Shown here: positions 5,898-26,005 of the stretch, in pieces | Numbering within the stretch: the first letter of the stretch is position 1 | How the letters are laid out: each line of letters begins with the position of its first letter | The notes under the pieces: generated by a model | What the model was told of the DNA's origin: nothing | The model's input: the letters and a program-made list of their open reading frames with translations, nothing else | The model's database searches: none | Position numbers and translations under genes: made by a program | IMG/VR virus record: IMGVR_UViG_3300025138_000007 | Span: 1 to 30,349 of that record | Direction: 5' to 3' (one strand) | From: a virus | Length of the DNA stretch: 30,349 nt

Positions 5898-6695
5898 TTA
5901 AGATTTCAAGCCATATCCATTTGCTTGAAAATCAAATGTTTTACTAATCCCACTATCACTACTATTAAAGAACTGAATTGTAAAGCCTGTTTTTGATTTA
6001 CTTGTAATAGAATAATAATCTCCAGTTGATAAACCTTGTGCAGATATACCAATAGAGGGTGTTGCAAAAAAAGAATTGGTGAATGTATTAACTTTAGCAC
6101 CAGTTCCAGAAACTATATCTTCTCCACTTTCAAACCTTTTTTCAAAATTAACAGAAAATGATAAAGTATGAATTTTTGATTTTGTTTTATTATCATCATT
6201 AGTTAATTTACATCTAAATTTAAAATATCTACCTTTTACTGTTGCTTGCTGTGCAATTTTATTAAAAGATGTAATATCTTCCAATCCTGTTGTTGATGAT
6301 CCTATTTGAATTTCAGCACCACATTTAACCTCTGCTGAACCATCAAAAGGTGCTTTAGCTGATTCAAATAAACTTGTTCCTCTACCAGAATCAAATAAAT
6401 CATATTCATCTTCGGTAGACATTCCAATATCAACCATAAAAGTAGTATCGTAAATTGCATCTAAAGTTAATGTATTTGCAAAAGTATAAAATCCTGAAGA
6501 TTGAATATTTGCAGTAGAATTAGTAGGATTAGATGTTGAATCTGTACCACCTAGATCAAAATTTCCAGATGGACTATCTATATTTCCTACTGTGTCATCA
6601 AAATTAGTTATAGTATCTAATATTATAACTTTTCTATCTTGGTTATCTATATTTAATGAAAGATTGCTGTCTAATGTACCTGTAAAATTTGCCAT
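5898..6695 (-). CDS. Tail tip/fibre protein, beta-rich (265 aa)
   Basis: A 265-residue beta-rich protein directly after tail tip J. The middle part has GRYFKFRCKL, and the C-terminal third (SFFATPSIGIS...GDYYSITSKSKTGFTIQFFNSS...FDFQANGYG) resembles the H-type-lectin-like end seen on J-like proteins of marine phages. This looks like a part that is fused to J in some phages but is a separate gene here. It probably forms part of the distal tail tip and may contact the host. No enzymatic motif is visible. Confidence 0.65.
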   Translation of the reverse strand: MANFTGTLDSNLSLNIDNQDRKVIILDTITNFDDTVGNIDSPSGNFDLGGTDSTSNPTNSTANIQSSGFYTFANTLTLDAIYDTTFMVDIGMSTEDEYDLFDSGRGTSLFESAKAPFDGSAEVKCGAEIQIGSSTTGLEDITSFNKIAQQATVKGRYFKFRCKLTNDDNKTKSKIHTLSFSVNFEKRFESGEDIVSGTGAKVNTFTNSFFATPSIGISAQGLSTGDYYSITSKSKTGFTIQFFNSSDSGISKTFDFQANGYGLKS

Positions 6696-6701
6696 AATTA
6701 A

Positions 6702-8828
6702 TTACTCACTAAAAGTTTGTGTGTTTTTATAAGTTTGTAAGCCTGAAATATTTGTAAAAACAATCGATTCATTAGCACTTGAATTTCCTAATTTATCAAC
6801 TGCTTTAATTAAAAAAGCACCTGTTTTAGCATTAGTTGTTAAAGTATTAGATTTTCTTCTTACTACTTTAGCTAAAGGAGTGCTTTCATTCCATGTAGAA
6901 CCACTTGTAACATTTTGGTATCTTATCTCATACCATGAAATATCTAAATCTGTTACTGGTGTCCATGATAACTCCATTTGATTAGAACCTACCATACTTA
7001 TTGATAAATCAGTTACATCATTAGGAGTTTCAGTTGCACCAATAACTGTATGATTAGCAGAAACATAGGTACTACTAACACCTAAAGCATTAATAGCTTT
7101 TACTCTTACATTATAAACTTTATCATCTATCGCATTTAATAATTCAAAATTTAATTGTGAACCAATAGCAATAATTTTAAAATCTGATTCTGTACTTAAT
7201 TTTGCTTCAACTTGATAATTAGAAACAAATTGATCTGTACTTGCACCAACAGTTATATTTAATCTAGTTAAAACAACACCATCTGAATACTCAATCATTT
7301 CATCTGATAATGTAATTGAAGCTGGTGCATTTATATTAAAAGGATTAGGTAGTGTTGTACTCGGTGTTGAAGCCACTTGTGTTTTAGTAGCCCATGTATA
7401 ATGTGCGTCTTGATGTTCAATTAAATCTAAACCTAATGTAAAATCAGGATTAAAATTAATAGCTAATATTCTAAATTGTTTATTAGAAAATCCTAATGAA
7501 GAATGAGTTACTCCTACAATATCTCCTATTGCTAAATCATAAGCACTAAAACTTACATTAATTGATAATCCTAATGCTTCTCTTGATCTTCTTAAAATTA
7601 CTTCTGCTAATTCAATAGCTTGATATGGGCTTGTAATAGTTTTAGAAACGTCAAATCTTCCTTCTAATAAAAAACCACCATCAGCAGTTTTCATAGTTGC
7701 GTGTCTATCTGCTGAAGAATAACCACTATCATCTATCTCTGGGTATTGAACTTCATCTACTTGATAATTTCTTTCTGGATTAACAAATGAAACTATAACT
7801 CTATTGTACTTTGAATTTTTAGTAGGACTAGATAAAGTATAACCACCAACTATATCATCTTCTGTAACAGTAATAGATGAAGAACCTGTGGTTTCTAAAA
7901 TTAATTTATATTTTCCACTTACATAAGGAAGATAACCTCTACAACCTTTTAAAAATTCTCTAACATTATCAATAACTGAACTTGATGTATCTACGACAGA
8001 ATTACAATCCATAACATCTATTGTAGTTGAACCATAAGCTGTAACGTCTGCATCACAAATTGTTGAAGCTGTGTAAAAACTTGGTATGTCAATATTGGCT
8101 ATTGCTAATCCTTTACCATATCTTTCATTTGTTAAATAATCTAATAAACACCAAGCTGGATTATCAGAATGTGCTGCTGATTGTGCAACTGATTCTGAAT
8201 TATAAGCTACAACTTTTTTCCCTTGTACTACTGCTTTAACATTTGGAATTCCTTGAAAAGCATCTTGATTCCATTTAAATCTTAAAGCTAAATAAGCTAA
8301 ACCAGATAATTTATGTGTTGAACCCCAAGAACTTAATGTTGACAATAATGATGAAGCACTTTGTCCATCAGTTCCATAATGTGGCTCTACTGTAATTAAA
8401 CTTTCAGAATCTTTATAAAAATTTCCATCTCCACTTCCTACTGTTCTTTGTGTGTTATCTGCTAAATCTCCTGACCAAGTAATAGCTTTATCATCTATTC
8501 TAATTTCTGTTATATCGTTTATTTCTCCTTCAGATAAAACCAAAGCCATATATAAATATGTGTTATCTGTTCCTGAAGTTTCTATAAATACTCTAGTTCC
8601 ACCAACTAATCTTGTTCCATAAATTACAGGAATACTAGCATCATTAGATTGTTTATTTATTAAAATTCCTTTTTCATAATCATCAGCTTGATTTGTTCCA
8701 AAATCAGCAATTTCAGGAGTTTTTGGTCGCATAAGCCAAGAAACAGCGACTGTTGTAATTAAAGCTACAACTGGATTTTTAAAAAAAGAAGTTATTTTTG
8801 CTACACTAAAGAAACTACCAAAACCCAT
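6702..8828 (-). CDS. Tail tip / host specificity protein J-like
   Basis: A 708-residue protein, shorter than lambda J. After a hydrophobic N-terminal segment (about 15-33) comes a conserved tip region with SIPVIYGTRLVGGTRVF and LYMALVLSEGEI, which is typical of J/TipJ proteins. A middle part (about 310-470) resembles the Phage-tail_3 region, and about residues 595-700 look like a fibronectin type III domain (MELSWTPVTDLDISWYEIRY). It forms the central tip of a siphovirus tail and helps recognise the host. Start and stop touch the neighbouring genes (its ATG overlaps the stop of the 8828-9403 gene). Confidence 0.88.
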   Translation of the reverse strand: MGFGSFFSVAKITSFFKNPVVALITTVAVSWLMRPKTPEIADFGTNQADDYEKGILINKQSNDASIPVIYGTRLVGGTRVFIETSGTDNTYLYMALVLSEGEINDITEIRIDDKAITWSGDLADNTQRTVGSGDGNFYKDSESLITVEPHYGTDGQSASSLLSTLSSWGSTHKLSGLAYLALRFKWNQDAFQGIPNVKAVVQGKKVVAYNSESVAQSAAHSDNPAWCLLDYLTNERYGKGLAIANIDIPSFYTASTICDADVTAYGSTTIDVMDCNSVVDTSSSVIDNVREFLKGCRGYLPYVSGKYKLILETTGSSSITVTEDDIVGGYTLSSPTKNSKYNRVIVSFVNPERNYQVDEVQYPEIDDSGYSSADRHATMKTADGGFLLEGRFDVSKTITSPYQAIELAEVILRRSREALGLSINVSFSAYDLAIGDIVGVTHSSLGFSNKQFRILAINFNPDFTLGLDLIEHQDAHYTWATKTQVASTPSTTLPNPFNINAPASITLSDEMIEYSDGVVLTRLNITVGASTDQFVSNYQVEAKLSTESDFKIIAIGSQLNFELLNAIDDKVYNVRVKAINALGVSSTYVSANHTVIGATETPNDVTDLSISMVGSNQMELSWTPVTDLDISWYEIRYQNVTSGSTWNESTPLAKVVRRKSNTLTTNAKTGAFLIKAVDKLGNSSANESIVFTNISGLQTYKNTQTFSE

Positions 8829-24619: not shown

Positions 24620-24772
24620 CTACACCCTTCCTTGTTTTGAATATTTTTTATAACTTCTTTTTCTTGACTTATTCATACTTGATAATTTAGGTCTCCTACC
24701 AATAGATGTACCATTCATTGTTTTTTCATAAACAATTACTGCACCATATACATTACCTTTAGTTTTTGCCAT
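24620..24772 (-). CDS. Small basic protein (50 aa)
   Basis: A frame from ATG 24772 to TAG 24620, with GNVYGAVIVYEKTMNGTSIG followed by RRPKLSSMNKSRKRSYKKY. The N-terminal half is beta-like and the C-terminal half is Arg/Lys/Ser-rich. It starts 14 bases inside the terminase small subunit gene and ends 3 bases before the next ATG. Small proteins with T-S-I-G-R-R-P and M-N-K-S-x-R-R-S-x-K-K-Y are familiar to me from marine phages. Possible nucleic acid binding, by charge. Confidence 0.62.
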   Translation of the reverse strand: MAKTKGNVYGAVIVYEKTMNGTSIGRRPKLSSMNKSRKRSYKKYSKQGRV

Positions 24773-25142
24773 CTTCTACATCTTCTACTTTAGCATCTAT
24801 TATTAATGGTAAAGGTTCAACAATAGATTCTTGTACTGTACGATCTTTCATTCCTAAATGATTCTTTGAAAGCCAGATCATCATATTAGGATTGCCTTTT
24901 AAAGCACTAGCCCACATTCTCTTTCTTAAACTAGCTTTACCAATGTTTTTATTTTCCTCTACTAAATCGGAGAATCTTCTTTGTAATGTTCTAGCAGATA
25001 TTCCTACAACAGAACCTATTTCTTCTTGTGTACATCCAATTTGGCTTAAATTTGCTATTACTTTCTCATCTACCTTTTTATTAGGTCGTCCTATAGATTT
25101 TGTCTTAATTGTGTCATTTGCCTTTATTTTGTCGTTTTTCAT
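24759..25142 (-). CDS. terS: Terminase small subunit
   Basis: A 127-residue protein with a helix-turn-helix in the first half (CTQEEIGSVVGISARTLQRRF, about 53-73) followed by KASLRKRMWASALKGNPNMMIWL and SKNHLGMKDR, the pattern of many phage terminase small subunits (L...QW..A..GN..M.IWL.K..LG..D). It would recognise the packaging site and regulate TerL. The packaging site may lie in or near this gene. The pairing with TerL is split by the exported-protein island. Confidence 0.8.
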   Translation of the reverse strand: MKNDKIKANDTIKTKSIGRPNKKVDEKVIANLSQIGCTQEEIGSVVGISARTLQRRFSDLVEENKNIGKASLRKRMWASALKGNPNMMIWLSKNHLGMKDRTVQESIVEPLPLIIDAKVEDVEDGKN

Positions 25143-25151
25143 AATCCTAAT

Positions 25152-25706
25152 TTATACCTCATTTCCCCATGAATCCCAACCATCTGTTTTCTGTCTAGCA
25201 AATAGTTCGATTCTAGGTTTATCTCCACATAATTGTATTATTCTGTTTCTAATTTCGTTTGGCTTTTTACTATGATTTGTTCTTTCAGCAAATACTAAAC
25301 CTTTAACATTATTTGATTTTTTAAGATTTTTTAATTTACCTTTTAATCCAATTAAACAAATTTCAGTTGATTTTAAAGTATATGCACCAAAATTATAACA
25401 ATATGAGCCAGAATTATATTTTTTAACCCAAGTAAAGCCTATTGTTTTATAACAAAAATTCCAACTTTTCATAACTTCGATTGATTCTAATAAATGACTA
25501 TCAGTTGTCCATAAAAATAAAATACAATCTTTATCAGCAATATCTTTAACAGGTAAATTGCAAATTTCTTTACAAGTCATAGTAGGATAAAAATTTTCTA
25601 CTCTGTTTCCAAATCCTCTATTTCCATCTTGATATTTTGCACTCGAAAACTTTCAAGGTGGGTCAGCATATATGATATTATATTTTTTATTTGGAAATGG
25701 TATCAT
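25152..25706 (-). pseudogene. MT-A70 adenine methyltransferase with in-frame UGA at DPPW
   Basis: The gene opens at ATG 25706, overlapping the previous stop as ATGA, and reads MIPFPNKKYNIIYADPP followed by TGA (25653-25655) and then KFSSAKYQDGNRGFGN and on without another stop to TGA 25152. The TGA is codon 18, exactly where the catalytic DPPW motif needs Trp (TGG), so one G-to-A change separates it from an intact 184-residue enzyme. The rest matches MT-A70/N6-adenine methylases (LFLWTTDSHLLES, IGFTWVKK). An internal ATG at 25580 would give a 142-residue product lacking the catalytic motif. Options are a dead gene, a sequence error, or UGA readthrough. TGA is a normal stop elsewhere in this genome. 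Confidence 0.85.
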
Positions 25707-26005
25707 TTTAATAGTTTAGTTAATAATTTCCATAGTTTAGGGTTTTGTTTAAATACTTTCTCATAGCCATCTCCAACAGCTTGTGCAATAGGTTCTTCTC
25801 CTCGTTTATTTACATCTATATTGGCATGATTAATAATTATATGAAATAACTCGTGCATTATCGTATTGAATAGCTTTAATCCTTTTACCCTTTTATCTAT
25901 CACAAGCAAATGTTTATTTGGCTCATAGAATCCATATAAGTCTTGTAATATTTTGAATTGTACTGTGATCTTATTTCTGCCATATTTAATGCTTGGTATA
26001 TTCAT
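25703..26005 (-). CDS. ImmA/IrrE-like metalloprotease (100 aa)
   Basis: A 100-residue protein with HELFH at 51-55 in MHELFHIIINH, a gluzincin HExxH zinc site, and an upstream strand (LLVIDKRVKG). The short single-domain layout fits ImmA/IrrE-type or other small phage HExxH proteins. ImmA proteases cut Cro/CI-type repressors; a XRE-type regulator is encoded far away at 29141. The C-terminal part is helical (EPIAQAVGDGYEKVF). It overlaps the genes on both sides. Family assignment moderate; substrate unknown. Confidence 0.72.
   Translation of the reverse strand: MNIPSIKYGRNKITVQFKILQDLYGFYEPNKHLLVIDKRVKGLKLFNTIMHELFHIIINHANIDVNKRGEEPIAQAVGDGYEKVFKQNPKLWKLLTKLLK

Follow-up and report, generated by a model that had tools for sequence, protein, structure and literature searches.

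An in-frame UGA at the catalytic tryptophan codon of a pelagiphage MT-A70 methylase, with recurrence at the same codon in mobile-element homologs

The methylase locus and its viral relatives

The DNA analysed here (the window) comprises a virus record of 30.3 kb whose nearest relatives are the Pelagibacter phages HTVC111P and HTVC112P; it is a pelagiphage close to HTVC111P that uses the standard code. The minus strand at 25152–25706 carries an MT-A70 adenine methylase frame of 184 codons plus TAA, with a single in-frame UGA. Translated from 25706 to 25149, the frame reads MIPFPNKKYNIIYADPP, one internal stop, and then KFSS...WGNEV before the terminal stop. Translation and alignment with homologs place the TGA (25653–25655, minus strand) at codon 18, the catalytic Trp of DPPW in the motif IYADPPW. 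Immediately 5' of it lie GAC CCA CCT, encoding Asp-Pro-Pro (25656–25664, minus strand), and the +4 base is A (25652, minus strand), giving UGA-A.

When the UGA was read as Trp, the Pfam MT-A70 profile PF05063 was matched over its whole length (residues 9–183, E=1.6e-31). The protein also matched phrog_359, a DNA methyltransferase (E=1.1e-71), and its DPPW aligned with the DPPW of the solved MT-A70 protein 7f4l. The DPPW/DPPY motif is complete in the encoded protein only with Trp at the UGA. The ORF list also holds a fallback frame of 142 aa from an internal ATG (25152–25580, minus strand); since it lacks DPPW, this product alone is predicted not to be a functional methylase. Upstream is a HELFHI metalloprotease-like gene of 100 aa (25703–26005, minus strand; ORF list and profile match), and downstream a terminase-small-subunit/HTH-like gene (24759–25142, minus strand; profile match, phrog_309).

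A sequence-only reading of this DNA had placed the stop exactly at the W of DPPW, in a frame intact on either side that starts with an ATGA overlap with the upstream gene. Each of these points held: TGA at 25655–25653 is the sole internal stop, the PF05063 match runs from end to end across it, and the overlap lies at 25706–25703. The same reading had dismissed a general change of code, and rightly so. TGA terminates about 11 of the 52 ORFs in the window (table 11), and coverage was no higher under code 4. Searches of the window for tRNAs and against Rfam gave no match. One other frame break was seen among the window genes compared with HTVC111P. At 5898–8828, a tail protein that is a single 968-aa gene in HTVC111P is divided by TAA, then a nearby ATG, into 708 and 265 aa; it looks like an ordinary gene split.

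Relatives were compared at the UGA codon, a check that had been proposed earlier. In the best 80 viral homologs (51–74% identity) the codon is TGG or, giving DPPY, TAT/TAC, and none contains an internal stop; one of the 80 starts 3' of the motif and is therefore uninformative at the codon. The nearest homologs of the window methylase, at 68–74% identity, likewise have TGG or TAT/TAC. No relative above 74% identity was found, and the window's own UGA allele occurs in none of its relatives examined. The suggestion that the codon lies one transition from TGG is thus plausible but unproven, as the nearest homologs have either DPPW or DPPY and the tree does not assign the window clearly to either form. 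DPPY encoded by TAT/TAC was seen in six phage MT-A70 relatives (L006, L007, L008, L011, L020 and L021), of which L007 is a syntenic pelagiphage relative.

Between the same flanking genes in close relatives (window 24759–26005; L083–L094 and L147–L151), we found either the methylase, exactly 10 bp, or other inserts of about 541 or 1106–1196 bp. The methylase is a dispensable cassette, present or absent, and many near relatives are without the gene.

Recurrence of UGA at DPPW and its codon context

When viral contigs were scanned for IYADPP with TGA directly after it, two matched (L224 and L225), both MT-A70 genes with intact frames. The same TGA pattern gave 45 matches in genome contigs; in 14 of these an MT-A70 frame has a single UGA, at the DPPW codon, and TGG at its other Trps. 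Thirteen of these are from Clostridia and one, partial, is from Bifidobacteriaceae. Several of the clostridial genes sit in gene clusters of conjugative elements that also encode VirD4 (CD1115 family) and a VirB4 of the CD1110 family (L461–L471), and one clostridial copy (L353) is frameshifted further on. Genome G002 has four UGA methylase copies, one of them decayed.

Protein-family surveys of clostridial genomes covered 133 MT-A70 genes not found via a stop (a manual count of the tabulated matches). Four contain internal stops, and two of the four are UGA at DPPW: L590, an intact gene within a 3.5-Mb single contig, and L447, which shows further decay. The survey TAG cases, L538 and L595, each have a single TAG elsewhere (one at a Trp in GMGYW, one at a position after SP) in a frame that is otherwise open. 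Relatives with frames broken elsewhere in the gene had been named earlier as a finding that would refute the reading. Internal stops of that kind proved rare, with none in the aligned viral loci and 2/133 in the clostridial survey genes.

The tree of 267 homologs requires ten switches from or to TGA at this site, so UGA at the DPPW codon appears to have arisen about ten separate times. The searched sets are known in size only approximately, and the recurrence rates are accordingly approximate. Most origins are single sequences, and the allele persists only in one clade and one pair (L362/L377).

Control scans of viral contigs returned no comparable set. IYADPP followed by TAA or TAG gave two matches, neither of them a methylase. 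UGA at another conserved Trp (GFxW), a control with a smaller target set than the TAA/TAG one, gave 46 pattern matches and no methylase, and UGA in methylases of the ILADPPW type gave none. For PF01555 (N6_N4_Mtase) in the 392 clostridial genomes of one of the MT-A70 surveys, we found one internal stop (TAG) and no TGA among the approximately 150 matches listed. Three candidates for isolate examples of the UGA allele (H83, H75 and H50) were rejected, as they have ordinary TGG. The MT-A70 gene of phage nd4 (L568, OR777945) is frameshifted and annotated as separate short proteins.

The affected Trp codon stands out by its surroundings. MT-A70 genes have a median of seven Trp codons, and Pro precedes only 25/1457 Trps other than that of DPPW. 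The +4 base is A in nine of the ten tree origins and G in the tenth; A follows TGG in 29% of homologs. Counting 12 cases, treated as independent and including L447 and L380, the +4 base is a purine in 12/12, compared with 42% of homologs with TGG (Fisher p=5e-5). Mutation biased towards GG-purine could play a part, and would need to be strong. Among the chain endings before a stop, DP and PP stall termination most strongly (Hayes 2002, as cited in PMC7246954). Termination errors become more frequent with Pro at −1/−2, and Trp is the main residue inserted when UGA is misread (PMC11126739). Misreading by tRNA-Trp is described as especially likely at UGA-A (Engelberg-Kulka 1981, as cited in PMC5289835). 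The window's own context, DPP-UGA-A, is thus of the read-through-prone kind, in line with the bias of the group.

Selection past the UGA and the decoding machinery

Six copies from one clostridial family in three genomes (L357, L373, L374, L366, L356 and L363) have the UGA in common. Downstream of it, dN/dS is mostly 0.07–0.21, with dS up to 0.66; values are higher only between near-identical copies. Up to 87 substitutions have accumulated there with no second stop and no indel, and for L357 vs L356 4.3 stops would be expected under neutrality, with 0 observed. As the downstream frame is under purifying selection while the UGA is shared, we infer that the UGA is translated through in this clade, in cells with the standard code. 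The pair L362/L377, from two different assemblies and both with UGA, differs by four synonymous and no nonsynonymous changes.

The branch leading to the window has dN/dS of about 0.15 and no second stop, vs 3.9 expected if neutral. The window gene shows no other sign of a pseudogene: no other stop, no frameshift and no relaxed selection on the branch. If the gene is dead, its loss is recent. With the nearest homologs at 68–74% identity, an allele that arose within about the last 15% of the window branch could simply be dead.

We looked for decoding machinery in the ten clostridial genomes carrying UGA methylases. RF2 was above the cut-off in nine, with a partial match in the tenth, and in several hosts a UGA lies inside the prfB match, as expected for the autoregulatory frameshift of this gene. 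No tRNA-Sec was over the cut-off in any of the ten, and selenocysteine was rejected on this ground. Code 4 was rejected for these genomes because UGA is a stop in nearly all contigs and RF2 is present. All six tRNA-Trp genes found have the anticodon CCA. An anticodon stem of 4 bp can enable variants of tRNA-Trp to read UGA (PMC13092985); only one of the six (in G008) has such a stem, and this was set aside as a general explanation. No tRNA lies near the clostridial UGA methylases, and L225 has one tRNA-Ser; a suppressor tRNA on the same contigs was thus rejected. A downstream stem-loop was also rejected, since no fold after the UGA is consistent across cases. After the UGA, synonymous change is reduced in the first codon window alone and rises again beyond it. 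Internal initiation was rejected because the clostridial copies do not conserve a start codon 3' of the UGA and a protein begun there would be without DPPW.

Read-through, loss and other explanations

We regard a leaky UGA, read as Trp to give a low-dose methylase, as the best explanation for the window, with a probability of about 0.5. The odds are thus about even for the window, and considerably better for the clostridial clade; at least some UGA methylase genes are probably read through at a low level and are not dead. Translation would start at 25706, and most ribosomes would stop at codon 18, releasing a peptide of 17 residues. With Asp-Pro-Pro at the end of the nascent chain and an A after the UGA, release is predicted to be inefficient. 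Now and then the ordinary tRNA-Trp(CCA) of the host would misread the UGA, placing Trp at the DPPW position. The result would be a small amount of full-length, wild-type methylase, with the UGA serving as a dose limiter, or at least being tolerated, for an accessory enzyme. The window allele would then behave like the clostridial ones.

The strongest competitor, which we hold to be a serious possibility at somewhat less than even odds, is that a dispensable methylase gene has recently been hit by a nonsense mutation and has not yet acquired other lesions, so that no methylase is made. The window allele is single and shared with no relative, the gene comes and goes between the same neighbours in close relatives, and methylases of this family also break in other ways, as in phage nd4 and the TAG cases L538 and L595. 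Random nonsense, however, has a median of approximately 20–24 transition-accessible targets per gene, yet on about ten occasions the stop has fallen on this single codon, as UGA with a purine after it. The absence of relaxation on the window branch also argues against loss. Further points counting against read-through are that most origins are single sequences, that L447 and L353 have decayed, and that the cases have no common stem-loop. An error of sequencing or assembly, with a sense codon as the true state, would require a change of only one base in one contig. We consider it improbable, as the same change recurs in independent assemblies in a non-random context and the only other frame break against HTVC111P is a clean gene split at TAA. 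Least probable is dedicated recoding of the UGA through code 4, a suppressor tRNA or selenocysteine. UGA can indeed be redefined, and G008 has the 4-bp-stem tRNA-Trp, but the stop function of UGA in nearly all contigs, the TGG at other Trps of the UGA methylases, the RF2 and tRNA-Sec counts, and the lack of a tRNA in the window or near the clostridial genes (with only the tRNA-Ser on L225) all stand against it.

The sequence-only reading had listed low-dose read-through, a fresh dead gene and a sequence error. It was right about the site, the frame, the code and these alternatives, and from the letters alone it had no view of the roughly ten independent recurrences, the purifying selection in one clade and the termination-poor context (Asp-Pro-Pro before, A after). 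Taken together, these three shift the weight to read-through for the group, while for the window alone the odds stay about even. A broader proposal is that phages and conjugative elements repeatedly turn the catalytic Trp codon into UGA as a selected, self-contained dose limiter, with the active-site Asp-Pro-Pro disabling termination and so acting as the recoding signal. We put this forward tentatively and consider it less likely than not to be correct in full.

Read-through of UGA by tRNA-Trp is already known, and the coat/A1 protein of phage Qbeta is an example. The methylase resembles such cases in its UGA, standard-code host and +4 A, and in the predicted Trp insertion with a minority full-length product. 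It differs in that the UGA stands in for a catalytic residue early in the protein, so that read-through would give the enzyme itself and not an extension; its UGA is also preceded by D-P-P and arises repeatedly in mobile-element DNA methylases. The literature searched contained no case of repeated, convergent UGA read-through at an enzyme's catalytic Trp in which the catalytic prolines just before it are the likely leak signal. The programmed frameshift of prfB is similar in that competition with RF2 at a UGA sets protein dose, but there the frame changes, whereas the methylase would keep its frame and decode the UGA. Selenoproteins likewise have an in-frame UGA in otherwise conserved frames; the methylase differs from them in its hosts, with no tRNA-Sec over the cut-off in the ten genomes, and in its homologs, which have Trp or Tyr and not Cys.

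If read-through is correct, gene callers split or discard a set of active mobile-element methylases. It would also connect proline in the nascent chain, RF2 and gene dose in a clean, testable manner, and would let a mobile element hold a DNA modifier that may be harmful at trace level by simple means. Compared with the MT-A70 and phage adenine methylases at large (PF05063, phrog_359), the window gene has the same full-length match, DPPW site and phage context, and differs in having UGA as its catalytic W codon.
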